From an uncultured Akkermansia sp. (GTDB lineage: Bacteria; Verrucomicrobiota; Verrucomicrobiia; Verrucomicrobiales; Akkermansiaceae): a stretch of 64,000 bases of DNA. The stretch is taken from assembly GCA_944390825.1 (NCBI GenBank), contig CALXRG010000015.1, positions 1 through 64,000 of the forward strand. Reading direction: 5' to 3'. The notes under the pieces are model-generated. The model saw nothing but the letters and a program-made list of their open reading frames with translations. It was not told the DNA's origin and ran no database searches. Positions within the stretch are counted from its first letter, which is position 1; each line of letters begins with the position of its first letter. The position numbers and the translations under genes were made by a program. Below, piece by piece: positions 8,145 through 50,449 of this stretch.

Positions 8145-8175
8145 AATCCTCACTTTAACGAGACTTATAAGGCAC

Positions 8176-9096: not shown

Positions 9097-9174
9097 AACA
9101 TTTCTTCTTTTTTGTCCTTAAATTCGCATTGTATTCAACTGATTTGGCTGTAGCGCACAAATTTACTAACAGGT

Positions 9175-10302: not shown

Positions 10303-10305
10303 AGC

Positions 10306-11277
10306 TTAGTGCTGACAGCGCAGGATGGAAAGGAGATTCAGGAGCATATACTGTAGGGCGATGGGTACCCTCTGGATGAATGTGATAAAGAGCCTCTCTT
10401 TCAGGCTCTGCGCGCAGTATTTGTTCAGGCGGAGAGTCTTGGACTCTCTGATTCGTGAGACAAGTTCGGCGTATTGATCGCGGCGATATTTCAAGAAAAA
10501 ACAGCTGGCAATCACCCCCTTTAGAACGTTAATTCCCCCCGACTTGGGGTAGGGGGACACGAGCCCTCGGCTCTCATAGAGCGAGTGAAGATGGCGCAAG
10601 CTCTCCTCCAGATAATCCATGATAAGGGACGGATCATGGACTTTATGCGATGCCGAGTTTGCATTATCGCGTCGATAAATATATTTTCTCGCGCTGCATG
10701 TCCTGATGCCAGAGCACATATTGAGATAAACATAGTAGAAAATCGAGTCCTCTCCGTAGGGGAGCCCGACAGGGAATCGAATATCATGATTCTTGATAAT
10801 GCTCGTGCGGAATAGTTTACACATAGGCCCGCAGAAGTTCAAGATCTCATGGGTAAGAAATCCGCGACCACTCAAGGGAGGTGAGTCCGAAAAAGAACGC
10901 GAGACCTTAATCCTTTTTGCATCTAGGTCCAGCATACCCTGTATCACCAAGTCAACCCCTCCTTGGTTATCCGACTCAAAAGCAGCAAGGAAATGTTTTA
11001 GCACTAAATCATCAGCATCTATAAAACAGATCCACTCTCCTCGGGCGGCTTCAATACCGGCATTTCGCGCTCTGCTGACCCCTCCGTTTTCTTGGTGAAT
11101 GACTGTCACCCGCCTGTCTTGTTCTGCAAAACTATCACAAATTTCTCCACTGCGATCAGGGCTGCCATCATCAACTAAGATGAGCTCATAATCCCTGTAG
11201 CTTTGTCTGAGAATGCTGCGGATGCAGTCGTATAAATACGGTTCTGCCTTGTATACGGGAACAACAACACTAATCAT
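10306..11277 (-). CDS. GT2-family glycosyltransferase
   Basis: 323 aa. GT-A fold: ISVVVPVYKAEPYL at the N-terminus, LVDDGSPD (~35-42), NGGVSRARNAG (~63-73) and the metal-binding FIDADD (~84-89). The C-terminal third is less conserved and determines acceptor. Start overlaps the preceding GT4 gene by 4 nt (ATGA), so translation is coupled. Donor sugar not predictable. Confidence 0.88.
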   Translation of the reverse strand: MISVVVPVYKAEPYLYDCIRSILRQSYRDYELILVDDGSPDRSGEICDSFAEQDRRVTVIHQENGGVSRARNAGIEAARGEWICFIDADDLVLKHFLAAFESDNQGGVDLVIQGMLDLDAKRIKVSRSFSDSPPLSGRGFLTHEILNFCGPMCKLFRTSIIKNHDIRFPVGLPYGEDSIFYYVYLNMCSGIRTCSARKYIYRRDNANSASHKVHDPSLIMDYLEESLRHLHSLYESRGLVSPYPKSGGINVLKGVIASCFFLKYRRDQYAELVSRIRESKTLRLNKYCAQSLKERLFITFIQRVPIALQYMLLNLLSILRCQH

Positions 11278-12407
11278 GACTCGCCTGCAATACTGTGGTA
11301 AAAATGAAGCATGTCATTCCAGACATCTGTGCGATTGTAGAATCGTTGGACTCTTGATTGTGCACATGCGCCGAGGCGCTTACGGAGATCCGCATCGCCG
11401 TAAAGCTCTCTCATCCATTGAAGAAGTTCCGCTTCCTGTCCTGAGGTGTAAAGCTCACCCGTTTGGTGGTTAAGAACGATTTCGTTGCATCCCCTGATGT
11501 TTGTCGCAATAGAAGGTAATCCCATTGCTCCTGCTTCGAGAAGAGAGCAGTTGCATCCTTCCCGGTGGGATGGCAATACAAAGATATCCGCCATCTCGAG
11601 CCAGTCCGGCACGTTGTCTTGCCCGCCTACGGCATGGATGTGAGGGTGGTTCTGAATAAGAGTTTTGGTCTGTTCGGCTATGGGATCCAGAGATTCTTCC
11701 TCCTTGCCCACGAGTACCAAATCTACTTTTGCCCCCTCCTCAAGAAGTCTCGTAAAAGCCGGTACCAACTCGTCGATTCCCTTGTCATGGACAATCCGGC
11801 CGACGTAAATGAAAACAACTGAATCGTCGTGCAGGTTAAGTTGTTCACGCATCATTGCTCTTTTCCTGGAAGGCTTGAATTTCTCTAAGTCGATCCCGTT
11901 GATATTTCCATGCCAAAAGACTTCAATGGGCTTGCGGGTTACATGTTGTTCCTCCACATATTCTTTAGTTCCAAAGCCATCCGCATTGAGATGCGTTGCA
12001 AACAAGCAGGTTAGAGCATTTGTCATTCGCACGATACCGCGCACAATGGGATTTGGGAGCTTCAGCTCCCCGTTGAACATGGCGATGCGGACCGGCACCC
12101 GTGCCATCCATGCCGCAACGGTACCTAGCAGTCCGGCCTTGGGCGTCATCGTATGAACAATATCGGGTTTTTCGCGTCGTAGCAATTGGTAGAGACGCCA
12201 AAGCGAGACGAGATCTTTCAGCGGTGCGATACGCCGTTCGATGGGAACGGCATGCGTCTTGAGCCCCTGGGCATGAAATTGCTCATGCTCTACACCTGGG
12301 GAACATACAGCACTGACTTCGTACTTGCCAGCCAGAAACAGCATTCTTTCTCTCAAAAAACTCTGCACAGAAGCAGGAACGGCTACAATGTAGATTAGCT
12401 TTTTCAT
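11274..12407 (-). CDS. GT4-family glycosyltransferase
   Basis: 377 aa with two Rossmann-like domains (GT-B fold). The N-terminal domain starts KKLIYIVAVPASVQSFL; VHTMTPKAGLLG (~84-95) is typical of the CapM/EpsD/PglA-like subgroup. The C-terminal domain has FIYVGRIVHDKG (~199-210) and the EX7E-type region SHREGCNCSLLEAGAMGLP (~276-294). Retaining transfer onto the lipid-linked oligosaccharide is expected. It sits 1 nt after the stop codon of the GT2 gene at 12409. Confidence 0.87.
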   Translation of the reverse strand: MKKLIYIVAVPASVQSFLRERMLFLAGKYEVSAVCSPGVEHEQFHAQGLKTHAVPIERRIAPLKDLVSLWRLYQLLRREKPDIVHTMTPKAGLLGTVAAWMARVPVRIAMFNGELKLPNPIVRGIVRMTNALTCLFATHLNADGFGTKEYVEEQHVTRKPIEVFWHGNINGIDLEKFKPSRKRAMMREQLNLHDDSVVFIYVGRIVHDKGIDELVPAFTRLLEEGAKVDLVLVGKEEESLDPIAEQTKTLIQNHPHIHAVGGQDNVPDWLEMADIFVLPSHREGCNCSLLEAGAMGLPSIATNIRGCNEIVLNHQTGELYTSGQEAELLQWMRELYGDADLRKRLGACAQSRVQRFYNRTDVWNDMLHFYHSIAGES

Positions 12408-12408
12408 T

Positions 12409-13302
12409 TTAAGAATGTCGCGTTTTGAGTCTAATCATGAGGTTCAGCATAATGCCGAAGGGAATAGCTAAAATTGTAAGTGCCTTTTTTGGAGAATCCT
12501 TGATAAATGACCACTTTTTCATAAAAATGCTATTCGACACGTAATGAATACACTCGACGAATTTTCGTCTGCGTGTCAAGGAAAAAATCATGGAGCTCCT
12601 TCTCGCAATATCCCATCCCTTAAGGTTTTTTACGTACTGGCGGTACATATTGAGAGACGAGCCGTCAGGCAAATATTCAACCAGGTAAATGACACGATTG
12701 TACAACAACCATGGCCACTTGGCATCAATAAATTGATTTTTATAAGCCATGCTACCGTATTTCTCGTCCTCGAATTCCGGATATTCGGGGGCAGCTTTTG
12801 CAACTTCTGTCCGAAAAATGATTTTTTTGTCACCTCTCACTCCCTGCGTCTCGCGTAACCAGTTTTCGTGTGCAATAGGCACTCCCGAGGGAAATTCGCT
12901 ACCAATGATACCGCCTCCTATAAATCCATCCAGTGCGATAAAACCAGCTACATGCTCTTGCTCTTTTCGGTGAGAATCCCAAAAATTTAATATACACTCT
13001 ATACAATCGTCAGTCAGCATATCGTCAGAGTCCATACACATGCAAAGTTCCGTTGTGATATTACGAAATGCTGTATTATGAGCGGTGTGCATTCCACCGT
13101 TTTCTTTATAGATGTAGCGTATAGGGATCTTCCTTTCCGATTGCCATGACTCAACGAATTCTCTCGTATTGTCTGTTGAACCGTCGTCGACGACTAGCCA
13201 CTCGAAATCTTTGTTACTCTGGCGCAGAAGTGAGCCATAAGCTCGCCCTAAGCAGTATGCGCGATTAAATGTAGGTGTAAAGACGGTTATTCTGTGCTTC
13301 AT
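12409..13302 (-). CDS. GT2-family glycosyltransferase
   Basis: 297 aa. ITVFTPTFNRAYCLGRAY, LVVDDGSTDNT (~36-46), ENGGMHTAHN (~67-76) and MCMDSDDML (~88-96) mark a GT-A enzyme. KYGSMAYKN in the middle and a basic C-terminus (MIRLKTRHS) complete it. The sequence is AT-richer than the core genes. A 7-nt gap separates it from the upstream GT32 gene. Confidence 0.87.
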   Translation of the reverse strand: MKHRITVFTPTFNRAYCLGRAYGSLLRQSNKDFEWLVVDDGSTDNTREFVESWQSERKIPIRYIYKENGGMHTAHNTAFRNITTELCMCMDSDDMLTDDCIECILNFWDSHRKEQEHVAGFIALDGFIGGGIIGSEFPSGVPIAHENWLRETQGVRGDKKIIFRTEVAKAAPEYPEFEDEKYGSMAYKNQFIDAKWPWLLYNRVIYLVEYLPDGSSLNMYRQYVKNLKGWDIARRSSMIFSLTRRRKFVECIHYVSNSIFMKKWSFIKDSPKKALTILAIPFGIMLNLMIRLKTRHS

Positions 13303-13309
13303 GTTAATG

Positions 13310-14041
13310 CTATCGTGAGGATTTACCTGAGAGGTTTCTGAGTCTCTTTAGTATAGCCAATGGAATCAGGGACTGCATTTTGAGGCGCCATCTTACCCAT
13401 TTTGGCAACCACGTGCAATCGAAATGGTGGATGCTGCGCGTATTATCTGTCACATAGATGGGGGCCCCAATCATGGCTTGTGGGCAAAAATACTCCGCAG
13501 GGTAAATCGTCACATCCTTGCATTGGGTAAGCTGTCCATCCAGTGTTGTCCCCAATTGTTCTATAATATCACTCGTTATAGTGCAAACAGTCCCTTGCTC
13601 ATCCGGGGCAAAATGTTCGAAAGCCAGATACTTTTTCAACACTTCACCCCAAACCTCATTTTCAGCATCACAAGCACAACCCAAGCCCGGATTGACATAC
13701 AACCGGCTTTGCCGTTCCTGAGTGCGGGCCTCCATTCCTAAAAAGCTGCCGAGCTCCAATATATCATCCATCGGGCGTATCACCTCAACATCCGTATCAA
13801 AATAGACGCCCCCCTCCTGGTGCAATATCCAGAAGCGTGCGAAATCACTCACAAAGGCATATTTCTTCGCCGCATAAGCCTCAGCCGTGTACGGCACCAT
13901 CCGGACATCAAAGTTGCTCTCGTTCCACTCCTTGATCTCGTAATCGGGAAAGAACTTGCGCCACGAATCGATACATTTGAGGGCCGACTTGGGTAAAGGC
14001 TTTCCTCCAAACCAACAGTAGTGGATAATTTTAGGGATCAT
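13310..14041 (-). CDS. GT32-family glycosyltransferase (OCH1/capsule-type, DXD motif)
   Basis: 243 aa. IPKIIHYCWFGGKPLP at the start, the AFVSDFARF segment (~62-70) and the catalytic DTDVE (~82-86) following GGVYF define the glycosyltransferase-sugar-binding DXD family. Bacterial members transfer Gal, Man or similar in capsule synthesis. Its start overlaps the acyltransferase stop by 4 nt. Confidence 0.88.
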   Translation of the reverse strand: MIPKIIHYCWFGGKPLPKSALKCIDSWRKFFPDYEIKEWNESNFDVRMVPYTAEAYAAKKYAFVSDFARFWILHQEGGVYFDTDVEVIRPMDDILELGSFLGMEARTQERQSRLYVNPGLGCACDAENEVWGEVLKKYLAFEHFAPDEQGTVCTITSDIIEQLGTTLDGQLTQCKDVTIYPAEYFCPQAMIGAPIYVTDNTRSIHHFDCTWLPKWVRWRLKMQSLIPLAILKRLRNLSGKSSR

Positions 14042-15096
14042 ATAATGTAACGGCTTCCAGGGATGAATGAAACAAGTTTAATAAGAGCCCATGAGATGGC
14101 AAATGTCAAGACGGCAACGCACGGGATTTGAACAGCGTATGAAGCATGGGGATACAAGCTTGACCAAAGAGGCCAAATACCATCCCGCATGACAAAAATG
14201 TGGACGAGATATATACCAAATGTCCGAGAAGCAAGAGCTTTGACGAAGGCGTGAAACTTAGTCAATCTCGATGATTGAACCACATCTGAGTTCTTAGTAT
14301 GAAAGAGGCTTTCAAATTTCTGACAAAGCAAAAAGTACCCCACTGCCATCAGCGCGACATTAAAAACGAGATTTCCATAGACGGTCCCATTTTCGACAGG
14401 GGGAAAACGGAAAAGCAAAACGCTGGCCGGTATTCCGACAATGATCGAAACGACCAGCACATAGTATTTTCTCCCTACCCTTCTCAATGAAAGAGGATAC
14501 CGGTGTAAATACGAGCCTAGCACCATATAGCCTAAGAAGCCTCCAAATGGCGAGAGCATCCTATAGTAACTGCCATCCACGTTGCACCGTCCTCCCAACC
14601 AAGGATCGATGTAGGGCATCATTAGAGTAATACCCCACAGGATGAGGAAGTACTCCATATTCTTTTTCTCCTGGAAGGCCGGACTCAGGAGTGGAGCCAA
14701 CAAATACAGCCCCATCAGAGCGTAGAGAAACCAGTAGACGCCATTGATCCTATCAAATGGCATAATCATCAAATCCTGCAGAATACCTTCCCAGGATATT
14801 TTCCCCTGCACACGCCATATCAAAAGTGAAACCAAGGTCCAAAACAACACAGGAACGGCTATCCTGACAACTTTATGCCGTATATACGCGCTTAATGGCT
14901 TGTTGACAGGAAACAATAAAGCCCCGCTTAACATAAAAAACAAAGCATTACACGGACTTGCTGCATAATTATATATGCTGAGCCATACATTTCCCTCCCC
15001 ATCAGAAGTCGGCAACGGAGCGTGAAATACACACACGAGCATACATGCCAATATGCGCACATAATCAAGATAAGGAATATGACCTGTTTGTTTCAT
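14038..15096 (-). CDS. Acyltransferase-3 family membrane O-acetyltransferase
   Basis: 352 aa with about ten membrane helices. The N-terminus YLDYVRILACMLVCVFHAPLP carries the conserved His of the family, and FFMLSGALLFP follows in helix 2. Family members (OafA, WecH, ExoZ) move acetyl or similar groups from cytosolic donors to surface sugars. Four-nt overlaps on both sides place it firmly in the operon. It predicts O-acyl decoration of the polymer. Confidence 0.87.
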   Translation of the reverse strand: MKQTGHIPYLDYVRILACMLVCVFHAPLPTSDGEGNVWLSIYNYAASPCNALFFMLSGALLFPVNKPLSAYIRHKVVRIAVPVLFWTLVSLLIWRVQGKISWEGILQDLMIMPFDRINGVYWFLYALMGLYLLAPLLSPAFQEKKNMEYFLILWGITLMMPYIDPWLGGRCNVDGSYYRMLSPFGGFLGYMVLGSYLHRYPLSLRRVGRKYYVLVVSIIVGIPASVLLFRFPPVENGTVYGNLVFNVALMAVGYFLLCQKFESLFHTKNSDVVQSSRLTKFHAFVKALASRTFGIYLVHIFVMRDGIWPLWSSLYPHASYAVQIPCVAVLTFAISWALIKLVSFIPGSRYII

Positions 15097-16106
15097 TTAT
15101 GTTTTAGAATGAAGGTTAACCGACAAAGAATAAACTCCAAACGAGGGTAGCGAAGAAAAACAGCTTCCATAAATCTCCTCATGACAGGAAGAGAACTTTG
15201 CATCACCCTCAATACGGATCCTTTACATTTATCTGTTTTGACGGACTCCCACCTTACAGGCTTCCCCTTGCACACAGACTCCCCAAACACAGAATTATAC
15301 AAGACACGCCGGATGGAAAGCCAGACTGACATATCGTTTCTTTCCAGATGCCTTAACACATCCATGACAGAGCGGTAAGCCAGTATTGTATGCCAAACTG
15401 GATCCCGACGGGATAATGAATGGGGTGTCACCCGATAAGCATAATAAGCCCCGGACACACGTCGTACTGCAGGGAAAAAAGACATATACCATGCCAGCCA
15501 CACGTTATCTTCCCTATAACTCAGATTTTCATCAAATAAAATCCTCTTACTCTGCACCAACTCCCTCTCGATGAGAAAGCCCCAGACATAGCCATGATTG
15601 AATTCACGGATCATCTTATAGGTCGGATATGCTCTCTGCTCCTGAGACACAGAATAAGAGACATTATCCAGCTCCTCGTTTGTCTTGAAGCGGATAACGG
15701 GCAATACTGGTACACACTCAGATCTATAGTTTTCTAACAAAATTTCCAAGGAGTTTTCTGACAATACATCGTCGGAGTCAAGGAAAAAAAGGTATTGACC
15801 TCTTGCTGCTTGAATACCCACATTTCTTGAATGGGAAACGCCTCGATTTGCGGTTTTAGTCAACAGAAGGTAATCCATGGAGGAAGACTCCAGCAAACGC
15901 GTCGCCAGCTCTACTGTACCATCTGTGCTGGCATCATCGATGAGAACGATCTCCACATCACGGAGGCTCTGCGCAAACACCGAGCGCAAACAATCCTCAA
16001 GATAAGCCTCGCCGTTATACACTGGAATAATCACAGAAACAGCAGGACTCTCCAACCTACTCCGTTGAGCGTACTTAACACCCATATCAGAACGCTTCTC
16101 ATTCAT
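15093..16106 (-). CDS. GT2-family glycosyltransferase
   Basis: 337 aa from ATG 16106 (MNEKRSDMG...), preferred over an upstream start because AGGAG lies 9 nt before it and the longer start would run into the preceding gene. GT-A motifs: VSVIIPVYNGEAYL (~24-37), VLIDDAST (~56-63), NRGVSHSRN (~87-95) and FFLDSDDVL (~106-114). The gene ends with a 4-nt overlap onto the acyltransferase gene. Confidence 0.87.
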   Translation of the reverse strand: MNEKRSDMGVKYAQRSRLESPAVSVIIPVYNGEAYLEDCLRSVFAQSLRDVEIVLIDDASTDGTVELATRLLESSSMDYLLLTKTANRGVSHSRNVGIQAARGQYLFFLDSDDVLSENSLEILLENYRSECVPVLPVIRFKTNEELDNVSYSVSQEQRAYPTYKMIREFNHGYVWGFLIERELVQSKRILFDENLSYREDNVWLAWYMSFFPAVRRVSGAYYAYRVTPHSLSRRDPVWHTILAYRSVMDVLRHLERNDMSVWLSIRRVLYNSVFGESVCKGKPVRWESVKTDKCKGSVLRVMQSSLPVMRRFMEAVFLRYPRLEFILCRLTFILKHK

Positions 16107-16110
16107 AATA

Positions 16111-17163
16111 CTAGACTCCTGTGTGATTTGTGCATGAGCACTCCCGTACAAGCTGCTTCTCCAAAATCAACTGCTTTTCCCTGTATTCGACACTCGCCAA
16201 GTAGGAAAAACCGTCCCGATATCCCCTGATGCATGCTGCTATGCACCCCCAGTGCGAAGGCCGCCAGCCATAGAAAGCAAGATGCAAGCCTACATTAAAC
16301 GACATCTTCCAAAGCATACCCAAAGCACTCAAATAACGTCTGAGGGGAGCTCCATGCAAGCGAGAGTACTGGAAACGGTGCCAGAAGATAACGAGATTAC
16401 GACATGAATCGTGCTTAATCGTGACGTGCTTGGAGACCTTCTCGACCAAGGTACTAACCGAGCTTGCGGCATGAAGATGATGGTACGGATATTCATGCGC
16501 GTAGACGCAAATCATTCCCATCAGATATGCTTTATAGAAAAAAACCTGATCTTCAGGATAAGCATAGCGGACATTCTCTTCCAGCCACATTTCCTGCTCG
16601 TAATCCAGCCTCTGAGCCGCCTTGCAACTCATGAAGCTGCACCCTCCTGATCCTGTTTGAGTATAGTAGACCTTCCCCTTTATCAACGGCTCCTGCCTAA
16701 TGGTGCCCCCCAAAGAAGAAATTCTAAGCGCGTAAGGCGATCGCTTTTTGCTGACATATGCTCCCGATCCCAAAAAAGAAATGATCCTACTCACGATTCC
16801 TGGTTCTCCCGTCACCGCATCATCATCAATTACAGGGCACACCACATCAGCATTTGCAGTGTTCATAAGTCCCCAGAGTTTCTCGACAAAATCCGGAGGG
16901 AACTCCACATCATCATCCACAATCAGGAGGTAATCTCCCTTGGCGGCATTGATGCCATCCACACGCTGGCGCACCATGCCTTTCGGCCCGCGAATGAAAA
17001 TCTCCGTACCCAACCTCTCCTTAGGCAGCTCATACTCAGGCGGGATGACGACGATAAACTCCATGGGCTGGATGGTCTGGGCTTTGATCGAATCCAGCAA
17101 AGCCTGATATTTCTCGCCACCGTAGCCCAGCGTACGCAATACTACAGAATAATTCAATGTCAT
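16111..17163 (-). CDS. GT2-like glycosyltransferase
   Basis: 350 aa from ATG 17163, which overlaps the upstream stop as ATGA; an in-frame start 60 nt further up would lie inside the previous gene. GT-A features: YSVVLRTLGYGGEKYQALLD, MVRQRVDGINAAKGDYLL (~62-79) and VDDDVEFPPDF (~81-91, metal site). The motifs diverge from ordinary GT2 enzymes, and PEDQVFFYKAYLMG (~222-235) marks the acceptor half. Specificity unknown. Confidence 0.82.
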   Translation of the reverse strand: MTLNYSVVLRTLGYGGEKYQALLDSIKAQTIQPMEFIVVIPPEYELPKERLGTEIFIRGPKGMVRQRVDGINAAKGDYLLIVDDDVEFPPDFVEKLWGLMNTANADVVCPVIDDDAVTGEPGIVSRIISFLGSGAYVSKKRSPYALRISSLGGTIRQEPLIKGKVYYTQTGSGGCSFMSCKAAQRLDYEQEMWLEENVRYAYPEDQVFFYKAYLMGMICVYAHEYPYHHLHAASSVSTLVEKVSKHVTIKHDSCRNLVIFWHRFQYSRLHGAPLRRYLSALGMLWKMSFNVGLHLAFYGWRPSHWGCIAACIRGYRDGFSYLASVEYREKQLILEKQLVRECSCTNHTGV

Positions 17164-18350
17164 GAGAACAGATGATAAAGGTTTGGAAGATATGGTTTGC
17201 AGCTGTAATCCCGCCTGCTGCACGTTTCCGCCAGTTGTTGCAGACGTGCAGGACGGCTCAAGAGTTGATGCAACGCAGAAGCCACTTCAGATGGCTCGTG
17301 GGAGGGCAGGATCACTCCGTCCACTCCATCCTCCAGCTGTCCCGCAGCTGTTGGATAAGGGGTGATGGCCACGGGCTTCCCCAATGCCTGAGCTTCCAGC
17401 ACAGCCACACACTTACCCTCATAACGGCTGGGTTGCACATAGAGATCACAAGCCTTCATGTAGGGATACGGATTATCCCGCTTACCCAGGATGTGGAAAG
17501 ACTCCTTCATCCCGTACTCACTGATTGCTTTTCGTATCAAGGGCTCATCTCCTCCGTAGCCGATGATATACCAATGAACATCCTGTCGCAGCTTGCGTAA
17601 TTCCGCCATAATGGAGACAGCTCCATCAAAGTTTTTAGCATGGCAGAAGCGTCCGACAGAGAGAAGTTTGAGAACTCCCTTCATTTCTCCCGAAATATCC
17701 TGCTCGTTCGCCTGCCTTTCCAGCAAACTGCGAGTGACGCCATTTTCGACCATGGTCAGCCGATCCGCTAGGGAGGGAAAGACCTTGGCGAAGCCCGAAT
17801 GCACGGCGGGTGAAATGGAGATGATACGGTCAAAAAGGGCCCATCCAGCGACGTCTCGCTGGGCGTTCCGAGTTAGGTAGGCATAATCCGTATGGATCCA
17901 GGCAATGTATTGTCTGGCTTTTACATGCCGACGTTCGATGCGGTGGTTGGCCAGATAGGAAATACAAGCATCATACGTGGTACGTGGGTTGATGGACGGA
18001 AGGATGGGTGCTGCCCAGCGGTCGATCTCGTCATAGATATTACCTCCATCTCGGCTCACTCGGGCGGCGCAGGCTGCCGCAATCTTGGTCGCGGCGATAA
18101 GGGGGTGCGCGCAGATGATCTCCTTGATGCCGGAGTTCAGTGCGCGATAAGCCGGAATCTCAGGCAAAAGTTTCACTTCTTTGGGGAGATATTCCATTAA
18201 CTCTCCCTCGTGTTTGTAGAGAAAGAGATCGACATCGTAACGCTCGTAGTCGAAGGATTCGAGCATGGAAAGTAGGGCTCTTTCCGCCCCACCTAAGAAC
18301 ATGCTACACTGTGTGATGAGGATACGCTTTTTCATCATAGAATTAGTCAA
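17160..18350 (-). CDS. GT4-family glycosyltransferase
   Basis: 396 aa. N-terminal ILITQCSMFLGGAERAL is the classic GGAE loop of GT4 enzymes; the C-terminal half has LLSVGRFCHAKNFDGA (~229-244) and QPSRYEGKCVAVLEAQALGKP (~316 on). TTG 18350 is used because AGGA sits ~6 nt upstream and the codon overlaps the previous stop. ATG codons at 18338 and 18335 are alternatives without a ribosome site. GT-B, retaining. Confidence 0.85.
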   Translation of the reverse strand: MTNSMMKKRILITQCSMFLGGAERALLSMLESFDYERYDVDLFLYKHEGELMEYLPKEVKLLPEIPAYRALNSGIKEIICAHPLIAATKIAAACAARVSRDGGNIYDEIDRWAAPILPSINPRTTYDACISYLANHRIERRHVKARQYIAWIHTDYAYLTRNAQRDVAGWALFDRIISISPAVHSGFAKVFPSLADRLTMVENGVTRSLLERQANEQDISGEMKGVLKLLSVGRFCHAKNFDGAVSIMAELRKLRQDVHWYIIGYGGDEPLIRKAISEYGMKESFHILGKRDNPYPYMKACDLYVQPSRYEGKCVAVLEAQALGKPVAITPYPTAAGQLEDGVDGVILPSHEPSEVASALHQLLSRPARLQQLAETCSRRDYSCKPYLPNLYHLFS

Positions 18351-19321
18351 ACGATTTCCTGATGATGTTTCCTCATGATGGCACGTTCGTCCCTAGACGA
18401 GCCAATATACAAAAGCTTATTCAGTATCAAAACAAGCAGATCAATAGTTTTTAGCATGCTGAAGATGATCGCATGACGTGCAAAGCCTAGCAGACGCCTC
18501 TGCCTTGCCAGGTTTATGTTCCATTGTTTGATCGGCATTTTAGAGATCCTAAGCTGCCATCTCTGGGTTGTGCGATATCGATAGTAGAGCTGTTGCGCCT
18601 CGGAAGCAGAGCCTATGCGATGCTGCTTAAGCCAGTAGTTTGGCAGAGCAAAATACAACCTCGACAAGTTGTCTTCATCTGAATCTGCCGTAACTGAGCC
18701 TGCGTGTTGGCGGTATAATACGTCTTGAGTCTCTGTAAAAGCTATCAGGGGATGATGTATGGCGTACTTTGACCACGCTGCCCAATCCTCTGCATTTTTC
18801 ATGTTTTCCGGGAAAAGGGGGAGGAGAGCCTTCGCGTTATCTGCTTTGAGAATGGAGGTAGAAGAGTGCACGTAGAGTGAGGGTGTGGCGAAATAGGGCT
18901 GCTCTTCTATGGGGGTGGGTGCGGCAGTGAGAGATAAGCACTCAGTGTCTGCTCCCATGACGTATCTGCTGGAATACCACGCTATATCCTCGTGTTGGGA
19001 AAGGTAAAGATGTGCTCGTGTCAGGTGATCGGAATCCCAGACATCGTCTGAATCTAAAAAGGCAATGTATTTCCCTCGAGCTTCCCTGATTCCGATGTTG
19101 CGTGCGCATGATACCCCGGAGTTAGGAATTGACACGATACGCATTCTCTTGTCTTGGAGTATGCTTATCCTCTCCATGGAGTGATCCGTCGAACCATCGT
19201 TGACAACGATTAGTTCCCAGTCGCTATTCTTCTGTCGAAGAACCGAGGTGATCGTTTCTTCAATATGCTGCTCCGCATTGTAGACGGGGATGACGATGCT
19301 GAAAAAGGGTGACGGCTCCAT
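18347..19321 (-). CDS. GT2-family glycosyltransferase
   Basis: 324 aa from ATG 19321 (MEPSPFFSIVIPVYNAE), 5 nt after the EpsG-like gene; the frame is open further up but that part lies inside the polymerase gene. IVVNDGSTD (~37-45), SGVSCARNIG (~66-75) and AFLDSDDVW (~85-93) are the GT-A motifs. The C-terminus is basic with a hydrophobic patch, fitting membrane association. Confidence 0.87.
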   Translation of the reverse strand: MEPSPFFSIVIPVYNAEQHIEETITSVLRQKNSDWELIVVNDGSTDHSMERISILQDKRMRIVSIPNSGVSCARNIGIREARGKYIAFLDSDDVWDSDHLTRAHLYLSQHEDIAWYSSRYVMGADTECLSLTAAPTPIEEQPYFATPSLYVHSSTSILKADNAKALLPLFPENMKNAEDWAAWSKYAIHHPLIAFTETQDVLYRQHAGSVTADSDEDNLSRLYFALPNYWLKQHRIGSASEAQQLYYRYRTTQRWQLRISKMPIKQWNINLARQRRLLGFARHAIIFSMLKTIDLLVLILNKLLYIGSSRDERAIMRKHHQEIV

Positions 19322-19326
19322 CGATT

Positions 19327-20475
19327 TTAAGCAACTAAGGGCAGGATAAAGCTTGAAAAGAACGTATATGCGTAGCAAATCAGGAGGAAGCCCGCGAGTT
19401 TTTGACTCTGATCCTTCCATACCCTGACTTTGAGCCAAGGATATATCAAGACGATGGGCATGATAAACCAGGAAAGCTGGGCGAAGCGGTTGCTGAAGGA
19501 AGCATACATCATCAGGATCCAGAAGGCGTTGCTGGTAACGTAAATATTAAAAAGCCAGAGATAGGTTTTATCCCGATACCCTCGCCGAATGAAGAAATAC
19601 CAGCCTGTGATAATGGGGAGAGAGGAGTACAGTAAAAAATCGGCTCGAAAGCCCGTATAATAGCCGCCTGAGTTCAGGTCACGAACTCCATAGTGAGAAA
19701 GACGAGGGTCGTCAAAAAAGCCGCTGGAGGCGATGGCGGTGCTGAGGCTTCCTCCCCCTACAGCAGCGGCCAAAATGCAGAGAACCCAGCCGACAATGTA
19801 GAGCTTGGGATTGGTGATCTTCCATGCCAAAATGGATGAACCAATCAGCAAATACATGGACTTGTGCACGCCCACTGCTAGGAAACACAGCAATGCTGCC
19901 ACCCAAAGTTTATCCCGATAGCTCAATGCCAGAATCAACATGGAGGCAGCCATGCCGTTGCGAACGCCATTCACTCCGTAGGAGAAAAAGCTGAAGGCGG
20001 CGCAGATCATCAGGAAGGGTAGAAACCAATGCGCATCAAATGTCCGTTTGCAGAAAAGAGCGGCACAGCCGACGTAGGAAAGGGCGGCTATAAGGAAGGC
20101 CAGGTGCTCGTCTGCGTAGAAGGCGGAAAATGACTCGATGCAGCCGTAGAACCACTCCCCCCCCCAGTCAATCGAAGAAAGCCAGCTGGGCGGATTCAGG
20201 GCTTTCAGAGCTAGGATGCTACCTTTGTAATTGAAGGTGTCGCAAAAGTCCGGATATTCTCTGAAAGAGGTGGTGGGCCGCAGACCGATGTAGAGGATGA
20301 GGAAGACGACGAGCAAAGCGCCGATGAATCGGGTAGCGCGGGAGGCGTTCCACTGGTAGATAGAACCCTTGTATCCCTGTACAACCGCCGTCATCACGAG
20401 GAGGAAGATAATCCCGTTAAACAGGGGAACATACAGCCATCCCGGGATGCAGGTGAATGACGGCAGTGAGAGCAT
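19327..20475 (-). CDS. EpsG-family polysaccharide polymerase (Wzy role)
   Basis: 382 aa with about ten membrane helices. The signatures are GLRPTTSFREYPD (~62-74), SYGVNGVRNGMAASML (~163-178) and AVGVHKSMYLLI (~197-208), whose Arg and His residues are conserved in EpsG/Wzy-type polymerases. It should link repeat units in the periplasm. It lies directly upstream of the run of glycosyltransferase genes and 18 nt after the pglE homologue. Composition shifts to AT-richer sequence from here to 5398. Confidence 0.83.
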   Translation of the reverse strand: MLSLPSFTCIPGWLYVPLFNGIIFLLVMTAVVQGYKGSIYQWNASRATRFIGALLVVFLILYIGLRPTTSFREYPDFCDTFNYKGSILALKALNPPSWLSSIDWGGEWFYGCIESFSAFYADEHLAFLIAALSYVGCAALFCKRTFDAHWFLPFLMICAAFSFFSYGVNGVRNGMAASMLILALSYRDKLWVAALLCFLAVGVHKSMYLLIGSSILAWKITNPKLYIVGWVLCILAAAVGGGSLSTAIASSGFFDDPRLSHYGVRDLNSGGYYTGFRADFLLYSSLPIITGWYFFIRRGYRDKTYLWLFNIYVTSNAFWILMMYASFSNRFAQLSWFIMPIVLIYPWLKVRVWKDQSQKLAGFLLICYAYTFFSSFILPLVA

Positions 20476-39037: not shown

Positions 39038-40486
39038 TTACAGCGGCGTTGCACACAAGCGGGCCACAAGGAAGTTCAACAGGTAGAATGCGGGGATGGC
39101 AGCGCACATCAGCCCGAAAGCCAAACTGCCCTCGCGCACGGAAAAGCCACGCAGTCCATAGGCGTAAAGCCCGCAGGAAGCCGCTGCCATGAGCGCCGAC
39201 CCTACCCACGCCATGATGCTGCAGATTCCCAACTCGAGGCGGGAAACTGACGGGCACGGAATCCCGGACAGCTGATCGAGCCCACCTGCCCTCAGTGACT
39301 CGCCGATGGCGATGTACAGGACAGCATACTCAACTGCAAGCAAGATTGCCGCCAACACGACGCACACCACAATCACATGGCGCGGCTTGAAAAAGCGCAT
39401 CAGGTAGCTTGCTGCCAGGCAGCCAAGCGTAGCCGACACCACCGGAATCATCAGCGGGAACCACCGCACGACTGAAGCCGGCTCCGGTGTCTGGGAAGCG
39501 CACTCTCCGGAAGCACCCGTTGCCACACCAAAGAGGCACCACACCGGCATCAGACACAGCAGCGCACCGCACACCCAGAAGCGCCAGCTCATCGCGATGA
39601 CCAGAATGCTGCGCGCGTAGCACACCAGGAAGAGCAGCAGCACAGCCACGGCCGCCCAGCGTCGGCTGTCGCTCATCACCATATCCTCAATCGGCATGCA
39701 GAAAGCCACCAGCACGCCCACGATAAGCAACAGCACCGCGACAGGCCGCGTTGTGGACGGGCCGCCGGAGGAAACCGACGGCCTCACATCCTCCACATCC
39801 GTCAGATCATCCGCATCCGGCAGCGTCTCCCGGCCGGCTTTGACCAGCAGACGTACGAACACCGGCAACGCGACGACCATCGCGACGTAGGGTCGCCAGG
39901 CCAGTGCTTCCTCGGCATATGCCTCCAGAGCGACCATCACCAACCGCTCCACAGCCAGCAGCGCGACGGCCAGCAGAAGGGCGAGGCCGAGGCCGAAGGT
40001 GAGGCGCCGCAGTGCGGTTGATGCGGGGCCGGCTTTGAGCATGCCGGGCACGGCAAAAACAGGCACCAGCATACAGGCGGAGGCGAGGGTCAGAGCGTTG
40101 GCTGACAGCCTGTGACCATATAACGGCAGAGCCAGCAGCAGAGCCACGACCGCCAGCCCGACCACCGAACTCAAGCGCGCCGAGCCATCGCGGACGATCA
40201 CGACGGCTCCGCAGTAGAGCAGCAGTGCCATCATGGCCGCGTCTGCCACCTCCGGCGTCAGCGTAAACGTCAGCAGTGCCTGCGCCGCCTCTCCGGAGGT
40301 CCATACCAGGTATGGCATCACCAGCTGCTGCACCTCGGCGGCAAACGGGGTCATCAGGAACGGCGCGGGCCCGGTTTGAATGACCGCATAGAGCGTCAGT
40401 CCCAGCAGGCCGGCCAGCAGCAGAAAAAACGAACGGAAGCGGCGCGGCAGCACCGGTGTAAGATCACGGTCAACGGGTGTACTCAT
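39038..40486 (-). CDS. Polytopic membrane protein of unknown function (paralogue A)
   Basis: 482 aa with about 11-12 hydrophobic helices and a short cytosolic loop near residues 215-245 (DADDLTDVEDVRP). No family is recognised. It is a clear paralogue of the next minus-strand gene: both begin with TPVLPRRFR-x-FF, share LRRLTFG-x-GLAL (~164-175), the AGVLVAFC/VGVLVAFC helix and LLLFLVCYA/LLLYLVCYA. Same order and length point to tandem duplication. Its own promoter lies 9 nt before the start, so the copies are separately transcribed. A transporter or sensor role is possible but not shown. Confidence 0.7.
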   Translation of the reverse strand: MSTPVDRDLTPVLPRRFRSFFLLLAGLLGLTLYAVIQTGPAPFLMTPFAAEVQQLVMPYLVWTSGEAAQALLTFTLTPEVADAAMMALLLYCGAVVIVRDGSARLSSVVGLAVVALLLALPLYGHRLSANALTLASACMLVPVFAVPGMLKAGPASTALRRLTFGLGLALLLAVALLAVERLVMVALEAYAEEALAWRPYVAMVVALPVFVRLLVKAGRETLPDADDLTDVEDVRPSVSSGGPSTTRPVAVLLLIVGVLVAFCMPIEDMVMSDSRRWAAVAVLLLFLVCYARSILVIAMSWRFWVCGALLCLMPVWCLFGVATGASGECASQTPEPASVVRWFPLMIPVVSATLGCLAASYLMRFFKPRHVIVVCVVLAAILLAVEYAVLYIAIGESLRAGGLDQLSGIPCPSVSRLELGICSIMAWVGSALMAAASCGLYAYGLRGFSVREGSLAFGLMCAAIPAFYLLNFLVARLCATPL

Positions 40487-40495
40487 GGCATCTTC

Positions 40496-40523
40496 AGCCT
40501 AGCACATGGGGCCATGAAGTCAA
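40496..40523 (-). promoter_or_regulatory. Promoter abutting paralogue A
   Basis: TTGACT (40523-40518), 16-nt spacer ending TGC, TAGGCT (40501-40496), 9 nt before ATG 40486. Confidence 0.6.
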
Positions 40524-40605
40524 GCGGTAAGTTGGACAGGGCACCCATGCAGGGACTCACGGGAATACACTCCGTCTCTCAGCCTGGCGCAGCATTCCTC
40601 CGGCA

Positions 40606-40705
40606 GCATTCCGGCTTCCTCATGCTGCATTCCTGCTCCCGCGTGCCACACTCCGGTTTCCTCATGCGGCACACGTGCTCCTGCGTGCGGCACACCGGCT
40701 CCGGG
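40606..40705. repeat. Degenerate ~42-bp tandem repeat, about 2.4 copies
   Basis: Units 40606-40647 and 40648-40690 share TTCCTCATGC and GTGCTCC/TGCGTG-type blocks, and a partial third unit follows. It lies between the two membrane-protein paralogues and runs up to the end of paralogue B. A minus-strand frame across it gives Cys-rich repeats but lacks gene signals. Confidence 0.55.
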
Positions 40706-42094
40706 CTATGGGAGACTTTCCAGCAACGAATACACCAGCCAGTCCGGCAACAGGAGCGACGCATACAAAAGCACCAGCACCACCCCACCGAGGCGCGCGG
40801 AAAAACGCCGCAGCACCCACGCCATCAGCCCGCAGTACGCTACAGCGACAACCGCCCCGAGCACCCCGTATTCAGCCAGCTGCATTCCCTCATACACGCC
40901 TTGCGGCAGCCCTGTCCCGCCGTAGGCATTGACAGCACCAGCGCCCAACAGCAGCAGCGTCACGACCAGCATCACCCCCATACATACCAGGGCGACGCGC
41001 CACGGCCGCAGGGCGCGCATCAGCACGCTGCCCAGCAGGCATCCCACCAGCACACTCAGCACCTCAAAGGCCATCCACCCGTCCGGCCCACTGCCTGCCA
41101 ACAGCCCCGTACTGTGGAACATTCTCATCGACGGCAGGAGCACCACGGCCAGCCAAAAGGGCCAGCTCCGCACAACAGCCCACACGCTCGGCGCATAGCA
41201 GACCAGGTACAGCAGGAGCAGCAGCACGGCCGCCCAGTCGCGTATCTCCCGCACCACCGGATCCAGGTCGCGCCAGCAGAACGCCACCAGCACACCCGCC
41301 GTGAGCAGCATCAGCGAGGAAAGCCGGTTCTGTCTCTGCGGTTGACGCTGCCCGGCCTCCTGAGGTTCTCCGTTTTCCTTGTTCTGCGTACCGGGGCGTG
41401 CCGCCTCCCCATCTTCCGGGGAAGGAACTTCCGGTGAGGGAGCTTCCGGGGAAGTCCCCTCTCCCGGCACCATCACCACGCCTGGAGCGGCGAGTTCCGA
41501 CAAGTCAGGCAGAGGGCGGCGGCGCAGATGAAGCACGAGCCGCATCCATACCGGGAAAGCCGCCACAATCGGCACGTAAGCCCGCCAGTCCGGCCCGCCG
41601 ATCCGGCAAAGGTGCAGCACCTCCCGCAGTCCCCATGTCACCAGCTGCAGAGCGAGCATCAGCGCCAGTGCCAATCCCACGCCGAAGGTCAGCCTCCGCA
41701 GCATGGTCTCTACAGGTCCGGTCTGCACCATTGCGGGAAGCACCAAACACAGCGTGATCATGAACACCGACAGGGCTGCCGCCGGCACCCCAAGCCTGGC
41801 GGCGTAGAGCGGTGCTGTCAGCTCCAGTGCCGCAGCTGCCAGGCTCACCTTGGCGCAAAGGCCGGCCGTACCGTCATGCACCAGTGCCATGGCGGCACCA
41901 AAGAGCAGCAGCGCCATCAGCGCCAGCTCCATGGCCGAGAGTCCCATTCCTCCGGCGCGCGGGATGAGGGCCATCTGGGCCTGTGTCACCGCGAAAAGCT
42001 GTAAGCCAAGCAGACCGGTCAGGAAGAAGAAAAACGGGCGGAAGCGGCGCGGCAGCACCGGCGTCATAGCACCATCTGCGGAAGCATTTGTCAT
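40706..42094 (-). CDS. Polytopic membrane protein of unknown function (paralogue B)
   Basis: 462 aa with 10-12 hydrophobic helices. The N-terminus MTPVLPRRFRPFFFFLTGLLGLQLFA matches paralogue A almost residue for residue, and LRRLTFGVGLAL and LLLYLVCYAPS recur. The central cytosolic loop (~205-260) is longer and rich in Pro, Glu, Ser and Gln with short EAPSPE/EVPSPE repeats. Function unknown; conservation is in the membrane core, whereas the loop has drifted. A promoter ends 6 nt from the start. Confidence 0.7.
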   Translation of the reverse strand: MTNASADGAMTPVLPRRFRPFFFFLTGLLGLQLFAVTQAQMALIPRAGGMGLSAMELALMALLLFGAAMALVHDGTAGLCAKVSLAAAALELTAPLYAARLGVPAAALSVFMITLCLVLPAMVQTGPVETMLRRLTFGVGLALALMLALQLVTWGLREVLHLCRIGGPDWRAYVPIVAAFPVWMRLVLHLRRRPLPDLSELAAPGVVMVPGEGTSPEAPSPEVPSPEDGEAARPGTQNKENGEPQEAGQRQPQRQNRLSSLMLLTAGVLVAFCWRDLDPVVREIRDWAAVLLLLLYLVCYAPSVWAVVRSWPFWLAVVLLPSMRMFHSTGLLAGSGPDGWMAFEVLSVLVGCLLGSVLMRALRPWRVALVCMGVMLVVTLLLLGAGAVNAYGGTGLPQGVYEGMQLAEYGVLGAVVAVAYCGLMAWVLRRFSARLGGVVLVLLYASLLLPDWLVYSLLESLP

Positions 42095-47346: not shown

Positions 47347-48024
47347 ATGCTCACACTTGCACGCCTTCATTCCGAACCGGAACTCTTTTTCTCCCTCCAG
47401 GGCGAAGGCCCGCGCCTCGGCGTCCCGGCCGTCTTCGTACGCCTGGCCGGCTGCAACCTGCGCTGCACCTGGTGCGACACCCGGTACTCCTGGGCCCCGG
47501 GCATCCCCCTCCCGGAAACCGACGTCGCCCGGCGCATCCGGGAACTCCTGCCGCAAACAGGAACCGCCGGCCTCGTCATCACCGGCGGCGAACCCCTGCT
47601 CCAGCAGCAAGCCATCGCCACCCTGCTGGATCTGCTCCCCTCCGAACTCTACATCGAAATCGAAACCAACGGCACCATTGCCCCCGACAGCGCACTCATC
47701 CGGCGCATCAACCAGTGGAACATCTCCCCCAAACTCCCCCACGCCGGCAACCACGGCAAACAGCCCCTGCCCCCCGGCCCCCTCGCCACCTTCGCCGCCC
47801 TGCCCAACGCCTGGTTCAAATTCGTCGTGCAAGACCCCTCCGACTGGGACACCATCGCCGCACTGGGGCTTCCGCAGCAGCGCCTCATCCTCATGCCCTG
47901 CGCCACCACCCGCGAAACCCTGGAACAGCAGGCACCCCGCATCGCCGCCCTCTGCATCACCCACGGCGTCCGCTACGGCCACCGCCTCCACGTCGCCCTA
48001 TGGAGCGATGCCAAGGGAGTGTGA
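47347..48024 (+). CDS. queE: 7-carboxy-7-deazaguanine synthase (radical SAM, queuosine pathway)
   Basis: 225 aa. FFSLQGEGPRLGVPAVFVRL is the family N-terminus; CNLRCTWC (Cys36, Cys40, Cys43) binds the radical-SAM [4Fe-4S] cluster, and ITGGEPLLQ (~78-86) binds SAM. It converts CPH4 to CDG in preQ0 synthesis. No other que gene is in view. Its last 22 bp before the stop are repeated downstream of the next gene (see the direct repeat), so the present 3' end may have been rebuilt by an insertion. Confidence 0.93.
   Translation: MLTLARLHSEPELFFSLQGEGPRLGVPAVFVRLAGCNLRCTWCDTRYSWAPGIPLPETDVARRIRELLPQTGTAGLVITGGEPLLQQQAIATLLDLLPSELYIEIETNGTIAPDSALIRRINQWNISPKLPHAGNHGKQPLPPGPLATFAALPNAWFKFVVQDPSDWDTIAALGLPQQRLILMPCATTRETLEQQAPRIAALCITHGVRYGHRLHVALWSDAKGV
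48001..48022 (+). repeat. 22-bp direct repeat, copy 1 (queE 3' end)
   Basis: Identical to 49594-49615. It encodes the last residues of QueE. Four further bases upstream match with one intervening mismatch. Confidence 0.85.
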
Positions 48025-48098
48025 GATTTTCATAACACCCCATCATCACAAAGCAGCCTGTCCTTGACTTTCGCTGGAGCTCATCTCAAATCCAGCAA

Positions 48099-49535
48099 AT
48101 GATCAGAGACAAATGCGAAGAGGATTTGTCCGCTAAGCTCATTCCACACACTAGCTGGGAATGTGTGGATTCTGCCAGCTGGACATCCTACCGAAAGCGC
48201 CTGAACAGCTACACTCCTGATCATCCGTGGAACGCACTTGGCGACAAAGAGCTACTGGAGAAGTTGGGAGGATACACGCGCGAGACGTCTGACAGCCAGG
48301 AGGGACTCACCTTGGCAGGACTACTCATGTTTGGTACGGATGACGCGATCCGCAAATTTTTCCGCACGCACCAATTAAATTATTATGAATACGATGGCCG
48401 GGAGGAAACTGATCCCGATCGGCGCTGGATTGATCGCATTTATCCGGACGGCACGTGGTCCGGCAACCTGTATCAATTCTTTTTCCGCATACTCCCGCGA
48501 CTCACTGAATCCATTAAAAAGCCCTTTCGCTTAAATCACGACCTGACCGCGCAGGGAGAAACTACCGCACATAAAGCCATACGCGAGGCGCTTGCAAATA
48601 CCATCGTCCACGCCGATTACCGGGGAGAAGGCGGGCTGATCATAAAAAAGTATCCGGACCGCCTGGTTCTTACCAACCCGGGAACACTGCTGCTTTCTAA
48701 AGAAAGGATTTTCCGGGGCGGAATAAGCAAATGCAGAAATATCAGTTTACAGACGATGTTTCAACGCATCGGAATTGTGGAAAAAGCGGGATCAGGGATC
48801 GATGTTATCCTGCGGGGATGGATGGAACAATGCCTCATGCCACCGGAAGTACTTGAAACAACGGATCCTCCTCAAGTAACGTGGACTCTCCCGTTCATTG
48901 GTATCATCCCACAATCCAGTGCAGAGAAGCTGGAACAACTCATAGGGAGCGAGCAATATCAGACGTTAACCCTGGCCGAACGCATGATTCTATTGATTGC
49001 TTTCGAAAAAAACGCAATCAGCCATGCGGACATCCACGAACTCCTTCCCATGCTGCATCCCTCCGATCTGACCAAAATCCTTCAGGTTCTGGTCGACCGC
49101 GGTTACCTTCTTTCGGAAGGTCGCACAAGAGCAAAAAAATACAAACTGGCCTCTCCCACAAACACCCGTAACAACTCCCAAATGTCGCAGCTTTCCGGCG
49201 AAATGTCGCAGCTTTCCAGTGAAATGTCGCAGCTTTCCAGTGAAATGTCGCAGCTTTCCAGTGAAATGTCGCAGCTTCCCGAGAGTGCCTGCCTAGTACG
49301 CAAAAAGCTCAAATGCAAGCAAGAAGAACTCGAAAAAGCCATTCTTGATCTATGCCGGAACACGTGGACAGACAGTTACCAATTGGCCAAATTCCTGGAA
49401 AGGGAAAAACGAACTCTGCAACGCATCTTAAAAACGATGGTTCTACACGGACTCCTCGATGCCCGTTTTCCTCAACACCCCAGTCATCCTCAACAAGCGT
49501 ACCGCACCCGACAAACGTTGACTGAGCATTCCTAA
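48099..49535 (+). CDS. COG2865-type ATP-binding putative regulator lacking its N-terminal AlbA_2/Schlafen domain
   Basis: 478 aa. The N-terminal part aligns with the middle of the family (LLEKLGGYTR... LTLAGLLMFG, ~50-80). It is followed by the HATPase_c_4 region, with HKAIREALANTIVHADY (~158-174) and VEKAGSGIDVILRGW (~227-241). Normal relatives begin with ~120 residues of AlbA_2 domain, but here the frame closes at a TAA (48033) before any such sequence. Residues 362-395 are five SEMSQLS heptads. C-terminal helices resemble winged-helix modules. Composition is AT-richer than its neighbours, and 22-bp repeats flank it. Probably a transferred, truncated gene; activity doubtful. Confidence 0.75.
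   Translation: MIRDKCEEDLSAKLIPHTSWECVDSASWTSYRKRLNSYTPDHPWNALGDKELLEKLGGYTRETSDSQEGLTLAGLLMFGTDDAIRKFFRTHQLNYYEYDGREETDPDRRWIDRIYPDGTWSGNLYQFFFRILPRLTESIKKPFRLNHDLTAQGETTAHKAIREALANTIVHADYRGEGGLIIKKYPDRLVLTNPGTLLLSKERIFRGGISKCRNISLQTMFQRIGIVEKAGSGIDVILRGWMEQCLMPPEVLETTDPPQVTWTLPFIGIIPQSSAEKLEQLIGSEQYQTLTLAERMILLIAFEKNAISHADIHELLPMLHPSDLTKILQVLVDRGYLLSEGRTRAKKYKLASPTNTRNNSQMSQLSGEMSQLSSEMSQLSSEMSQLSSEMSQLPESACLVRKKLKCKQEELEKAILDLCRNTWTDSYQLAKFLEREKRTLQRILKTMVLHGLLDARFPQHPSHPQQAYRTRQTLTEHS
49182..49283 (+). repeat. 21-bp in-frame tandem repeat, about 4.9 copies
   Basis: Units start at 49182, 49203, 49224, 49245 and 49266 (ATGTCGCAGCTTTCC plus AGTGAA or variant). The middle units are identical. 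Each encodes MSQLSSE, a heptad, so copy changes keep frame and alter a linker or coiled-coil. Confidence 0.9.
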
Positions 49536-49593
49536 GGTACCAGGGTTCCGAAGGGCTCCCGATTGGCAGCAGGCTATGAATTTAAGCTCCCTC

Positions 49594-49615
49594 TGGAGCG
49601 ATGCCAAGGGAGTGT
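49594..49615 (+). repeat. 22-bp direct repeat, copy 2
   Basis: Identical to the queE 3' end at 48001-48022, lying 58 nt after the regulator stop and bounding a 1.57-kb segment. The rest of the gap 49536-49778 shows no gene. Confidence 0.85.
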
Positions 49616-49778
49616 AAGCTCACCCCGAGCCCCGAAACAAATAAAACAGGACGCCAACGGCCCATAACCCTTCATCAACGACCCCTTGCCCCCTATCCCG
49701 CACAATCACACGAAGCTTTGAATTCCACAGCGGAGAAGTCCATCGCAAAGAAAAGTGAAGGAACTGTAAAAATTGGAC

Positions 49779-49807
49779 TTGTCGAGCTGAGAAGAATATG
49801 CTATAGG
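49779..49807 (+). promoter_or_regulatory. Promoter abutting the outer-membrane barrel gene
   Basis: TTGTCG (49779-49784), 17-nt spacer ending TGC, TATAGG (49802-49807), 9 nt before ATG 49817. GGAAGAG in the same stretch could alternatively act as a ribosome site if transcription starts further upstream. Confidence 0.5.
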
Positions 49808-49816
49808 AAGAGACGT

Positions 49817-50449
49817 ATGAAGAAACTCCTCTCTACCTCCATTTTGTTGGCTGCCCTTGCCGGCACCGCCTCCGCTGCTCCCTACGTTCTGCCCAGCAAT
49901 CAGACAGGAGCCCTCACGGCCAACGACGTCCAGCCGGTGTACTCCATCGACTTCCAGGCCGCTTTTGCGGACGACAGCGATGACCCCGACATGTACGGCC
50001 CCCGCATCTCCTTCAACCTGTACAACGACCTCGAGGGTGACTTCCTCCACCAGTTCAGCCTGAACGTAGCAGCCCTCTGGGGCTCCGAGTCCGATTCCTT
50101 CACGGAGTTCGACGGCGTCTACCTGTACACCTACGACTACGACATTGATGCCTTCATGCTGCCCATCACCCTGGGCTACGATCTGAACATCCGCTGCGTC
50201 GACAAGCTGTTCTTCTACGTAGGAGGCAAAGCAGGCATCGCCATGTGCAAAGTTGAAGTTCCCGGCTACGATGACACCGACTGGGGCTTCACCTGGTCTG
50301 TCGGTGCAGGCTTCAAGTACTACTTCAGCGATCAGGTCTATGCCCGACTCGGCTATGAGTTCTCCCGCACCTACCTTGACTTCGACGGCATCGGCAGTGC
50401 CAACATCGGTCAGCACTCCCTGATCGTCGGCGTCGGGTGCCGCTTCTAA
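49817..50449 (+). CDS. Small outer-membrane beta-barrel protein
   Basis: 210 aa from ATG 49817. A Sec signal peptide (MKKLLSTSILLAALAGTASA, cut before APYV) is followed by an eight-stranded-type barrel with Gly/Tyr-rich strands (FYVGGKAGIAMCKV, FTWSVGAGFKYYF) and a terminal GVGCRF. The plan resembles OmpA-N/OmpW/OMP_b-brl proteins. Function unknown. A strong terminator follows. Confidence 0.8.
   Translation: MKKLLSTSILLAALAGTASAAPYVLPSNQTGALTANDVQPVYSIDFQAAFADDSDDPDMYGPRISFNLYNDLEGDFLHQFSLNVAALWGSESDSFTEFDGVYLYTYDYDIDAFMLPITLGYDLNIRCVDKLFFYVGGKAGIAMCKVEVPGYDDTDWGFTWSVGAGFKYYFSDQVYARLGYEFSRTYLDFDGIGSANIGQHSLIVGVGCRF

Follow-up and report, generated by a model that had tools for sequence, protein, structure and literature searches.

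The 3'-end of queE in an uncultured Akkermansia sp. carries a derived insertion, and the account of it that we favour, and hold to be rather probable, is that of a CIME-like remnant flanked by att sites, in which the 3'-end of queE served as attB and from which the integrase module and the 5'-end of the cargo gene have been lost. All positions given below refer to the window, that is the whole stretch of 64 kb that was analysed, which is part of contig C15 of a host genome of 2.32 Mb in 47 contigs. The features around the insertion are the following:

47347-48024, + strand: queE (7-carboxy-7-deazaguanine synthase), the target gene, intact (Radical_SAM/Fer4_12, orthologues in congeners)
47996-48025, + strand: left copy of the queE tail, attL-like, with the exact 22-bp core at 48001-48022
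48026-48065, no strand: foreign DNA from the left repeat to the start of detectable gene homology, with an in-frame stop at 48033
48099-49535, + strand: 5'-truncated SLFN_AlbA_2/HATPase_c_4 gene, HATPase_c_4 and the C-terminal region kept, AlbA_2 missing
49180-49284, + strand: tandem repeats of 21 bps in the linker part of the truncated gene, encoding MSQLSSE heptads
49536-49588, no strand: foreign DNA from the end of the gene to the right repeat
49589-49618, + strand: right copy of the queE tail, attR-like, with the exact 22-bp core at 49594-49615 and an imperfect dyad
49619-49816, no strand: native DNA downstream of queE, which aligns with the DNA between queE and omp in G003
49817-50449, + strand: outer-membrane beta-barrel gene (omp), directly after queE in insert-free congeners (OMP_b-brl, synteny)

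The empty site and the duplicated 3'-end of queE

The best NCBIfam matches of the queE product were QueE models, though the scores were below their cut-offs. Among the congeners compared the nearest relative was G003, whose aconitase is 89.8% identical, and there queE is separated by 304 bps from the barrel gene, aconitase comes next, the tail is present once and the insert is absent. The flanking order of the window (queE-omp-aconitase) agrees with it, and in ten further congeners queE is also found directly before the barrel gene. Because of this empty site and of the order in these ten congeners, the segment 48026-49588 is a derived insertion into the queE tail. Furthermore, what follows the stop codon of queE in G003 aligns with the DNA beyond the second copy of the tail in the window, at 79% across some 43 positions including the tail, and the region of the first copy had no match in G003. 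The downstream sequence of G003 thus continues copy 2 and not copy 1, which means that copy 2 runs into the native DNA. A first-pass annotation of this DNA had placed an insertion at the 3'-end of queE and expected an empty site in relatives, with one copy of the repeat and queE followed by the barrel gene. Both were confirmed in G003, and the alternative it had allowed for, that all relatives share the segment, does not hold for G003 and the ten other congeners.

Regarding the repeat itself, that annotation was right that 22 bps at the end of queE (TGGAGCGATGCCAAGGGAGTGT, 48001-48022) recur exactly at 49594-49615; the full repeat is actually 30 nt long and identical at 28 of its 30 positions (47996-48025 against 49589-49618), with a start-to-start spacing of 1593 bps and the consensus CCCT[A/C]TGGAGCGATGCCAAGGGAGTGT[G/A]AG. 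The 3'-end of queE reads CCCTATGGAGCGATGCCAAGGGAGTGTGAG, where the final two bases lie past the stop codon, and the block of the second copy (49589-49618) is CCCTCTGGAGCGATGCCAAGGGAGTGTAAG. Both mismatches are silent in the frame of queE (CTA/CTC, Leu; TGA/TAA, stop), and copy 2 in this frame would likewise encode ...LWSDAKGV-stop. The similarity of the two copies ends abruptly on both sides of the 30-nt block, and copy 2 is preceded by sequence that does not belong to queE.

When up to 3 mismatches were permitted, the 22-mer occurred at just these two sites in a search of the whole host genome and was absent from 75 Akkermansia congeners, and the exact 22-mer was not found in the viral or genome contigs searched; it is not a dispersed repeat, a possibility that had been left open before. 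The search for the same repeat around other insertions, suggested at the same time, found none in the host genome or in the viral or genome contigs. In 40 congener loci the longest exact match of the queE tail to the DNA downstream was 8-12 nt, against 22 in the window, and for this reason the tail repeat is not due to chance. A role of the queE tail as an integration hotspot throughout the genus was rejected, since no tail repeat was found within 4-12 kb downstream of queE in these 40 loci and no integrase lay next to queE there.

The core contains an imperfect dyad, GCTCCCTCTGG-AGCGATG-CCAAGGGAGTG, with a spacer of 7 bps. Among 3000 shuffles this dyad was equalled 6 times for copy 2 and, again among 3000, 69 times for copy 1; the test was post hoc and deserves little weight. 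The single-strand DNA folds of the insert ends were little better than those of shuffled sequences, with weak z-scores.

Two other resemblances were discarded. Apart from the queE-tail pair, the 64 kb contain a single exact direct repeat of at least 20 nt (40434/42039), which has nearly the same spacing as that pair, 1605 bps, and lies inside tandem paralogous membrane-protein genes, so that it does not mark an insertion; these are two membrane-protein-like genes on the - strand (39038-42094) which have in common an exact repeat of 23 bps. The near-matches of the right end in three congeners (G052, G053 and G057) fall inside an apparent ABC-permease gene, where the resemblance to LWSDA is by chance.

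The insert and its truncated gene

The insert has about 1.6 kb and a GC content of 0.50, and the GC3 of its gene is 0.55, compared with 0.81-0.84 in queE, uvrD, the barrel gene and aconitase. It has no other match anywhere in the host genome, and the part from 48026 to 48065 has neither a counterpart at the empty site of G003 nor a convincing match in congeners. On these sequence features we consider the insert DNA to be foreign. The window has an AT-rich block elsewhere too (5398-20475, gene GC 0.43-0.52), with genes that resemble those of glycosyltransferases and polysaccharide biosynthesis, as judged from their first residues only.

The only substantial gene of the insert is a truncated HATPase_c_4 gene. 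It had been described as an AT-richer regulator gene, and the composition stands, but the name has to be corrected since the truncation of the 5'-end had been missed. The product has 478 aa from the first ATG, whereas its Akkermansia relatives with an N-terminal SLFN_AlbA_2 domain have about 594-663 aa. It aligns at 50% identity with a full-length Akkermansia homologue (G068) starting from residue 155 of the latter, whose AlbA_2 domain ends at residue 158; the first 154 residues, and with them the whole AlbA_2 domain, have therefore been lost from the window gene. The homology to full-length relatives begins around 48066, some 40 bps past the left repeat. As HATPase_c_4 (PF13749) is present and AlbA_2 (PF04326) is absent, the gene does not encode a SLFN_AlbA_2/HATPase_c_4 protein as such and has to be seen as a truncated derivative. 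The lost half was not relocated in the host genome, where the sole AlbA_2 belongs to a separate 496-aa gene in another contig (C44). There is no ATG, GTG or TTG in frame upstream of the ATG at 48099, and a well-placed ribosome site was not seen. Together with the loss at the 5'-end and the stop at 48033, this makes the cargo gene probably a pseudogene, though the 478 codons that are left form an open frame.

Relatives of the cargo protein, at roughly 29-39% identity, occur on plasmids and satellite phages, and the gene was not found on any viral contig searched. Those relatives with listed surroundings stand alone between ordinary genes, often near short tandem repeats and contig ends, and none of the homologue loci read, including those of full-length homologues, bears an integrase. 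Short direct-repeat arrays such as TAAGCTCCTGATG and GGAACTCCGCGGTAAGG follow or flank six homologues (L120, L121, L122, L123, L124 and L056), several of them near a contig end. C-terminal fragments of the family without the N-terminal part were also observed (L052-L056, in G060, G063, G065, G071 and G072). In the linker of the HATPase_c_4 family, short peptide repeats are found in roughly one position, but their units are unrelated between species (MSQLSSE, NVGS, APKGDFM, LNAGSSV; window 49180-49284 and L042, L043, L045, L047), a pattern that suggests that tandem DNA repeats expanded independently more than once.

Origin of the insert

A gene end that is rebuilt beyond foreign DNA is the textbook outcome of integration by a tyrosine recombinase at the 3'-end of a gene. 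The anatomy described here, with a 30-bp core, a rebuilt gene end and an imperfect dyad, is compatible with site-specific integration, which the first-pass annotation had recognised in the look of the locus; this part of its suggestion stands, and we infer that a recombinase, of the tyrosine type, made the junctions. In the mechanism we propose, an element would have integrated site-specifically at the 3'-end of queE (attB), after which queE would read into the copy of the tail borne by the element (attL) and the original tail would be pushed downstream (attR), leaving queE intact. If the attP was modelled on another allele of queE, two mismatches silent in queE would be expected, and the sequence before copy 2 that is unrelated to queE is what an arm of attP would give. 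A subsequent internal deletion, beginning no more than about 40 bps from attL, would have taken away the integration module together with the initial ~154 codons of the cargo gene, and its product would be the present att-flanked stub of 1.6 kb with a probable pseudogene.

Elements of this kind generally recombine between repeats of 8-60 bps and often target the 3'-ends of housekeeping genes without disrupting them, their integration module is usually at one end, and they decay to CIMEs in which only the att sites are kept (PMC5704250; PMC4701971). Because of this position of the module, a deletion at the left end could also behead the neighbouring cargo gene. The truncated cargo gene points to a decayed element. 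Both the former presence of an integrase on the left side and the succession of events are inferred.

No recombinase gene or fragment was found in the insert, nor in the rest of the 64-kb window. Among 40 relatives read, none had an integrase adjoining queE, the nearest being 2.5 and 9 kb off among ordinary genes, and searches of the 75 congeners and of viral and genome collections yielded no intact element at queE. Resolvase-family serine recombinases were not found in the host genome; it has about a dozen genes of the Phage_integrase family. The latter are on contigs C1, C9, C12, C14, C16 and others (L133-L140), several of them being paralogues of ~355 aa, and in the majority of six contexts that were read, the ~355-aa recombinase was alone among ordinary genes. 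One gene of this family (L134:9773-10837) adjoins an ORF that is very long and autotransporter-like. The literature mentions several genes of the xerD type in A. muciniphila (PMC9241678).

The chief rival, which we consider unlikely, is that a linear foreign fragment was captured illegitimately where the queE tail had suffered a staggered break, so that the fill-in of overhangs of ~30 nt left a long target-site duplication whose mismatches arose later. A random fragment end would cut a gene near the junction just as is seen here, and actually the truncation fits this explanation and a decayed element equally; the lack of a recombinase in the insert, a repeat unique to this insertion and the abrupt loss of similarity around the 30-nt block also agree with it. 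Nevertheless, 30 nt is unusually long for a target duplication, two later mutations would be needed, both happening to be silent in queE, and the dyad of the core would be a coincidence. Much less credit is given to a minimal non-autonomous element, a circle of ~1.6 kb with a single cargo gene that would target the 3'-end of queE and be moved in trans, for example by one of the host's solitary tyrosine recombinases. Such recombinases do exist in the genome and the stub ends exactly at the repeats, but this element would have left no second copy, given the uniqueness of both the 22-mer pair and the insert, and its cargo would be a truncated gene.

An artefact, in which a common word of 22 bps joined unrelated contigs of the metagenome assembly, seems equally improbable to us. 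The assembly is in 47 contigs, misjoins occur at short repeats and the gene is cut near the junction; however, two independent misjoins at one word would be required, and the flanking gene order is that of G003. The tandem duplication of the queE region that had been offered earlier as an option is excluded, because, although a direct repeat brackets the segment, the copies share 30 bps only, and what separates them is a foreign gene whose composition differs and which is absent from the empty site in G003. Two more candidates were discarded, namely an insertion sequence or DDE transposon, since there is no transposase-like ORF and no terminal inverted repeat pair and the duplication is of 30 nt, and an element integrated through Xer/dif (IMEX), since the core agrees at 8 of 28 positions with a dif sequence of the E. 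coli type, from which that of Akkermansia may differ.

Comparison with known systems

If it is an att-flanked remnant, the event is of a known kind at a site for which no report was found, and it leaves the general understanding unchanged; a literature search found no report joining queE, attB and integrase with the terms used. The gene queE joins the candidate 3'-end integration sites, and its 3'-end marks a place in Akkermansia where intact elements might be sought.

Compared with the SLFN_AlbA_2/HATPase_c_4 proteins (PF04326 and PF13749), the window gene resembles its full-length homologue in the part that was kept, HATPase_c_4 included, and differs in the missing 5' part with AlbA_2. Regarding the elements, those with tyrosine integrases (IMEs and ICEs) have been described at the 3'-ends of housekeeping genes, such as SGI1 at trmE, ATE-1 at guaA and streptococcal elements at rpsI, rpmG and lysS (PMC5704250, PMC4701971). 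The queE insert matches them in its position, in a repeat within the range of 8-60 bps and in the intact gene, and differs from them in its target, queE, and in having no integrase, relaxase or replication gene. Finally, CIMEs are decayed remnants of ICEs or IMEs that have attL and attR without integration or transfer genes (PMC5704250). The queE insert has just 1.6 kb, its att repeats are putative, and neither a parent element nor transfer functions were seen. Integration and transfer genes are indeed lacking, yet this is equally true of DNA that never had them. Like CIMEs, it has att-like repeats at its ends, a rebuilt target end, no recombinase and decayed cargo, and relatives have the empty attB (G003) or queE directly before omp (the ten further congeners). 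It would be a clean and small case showing how an integrative element may shrink by decay to a stub between att sites, its target gene staying intact.
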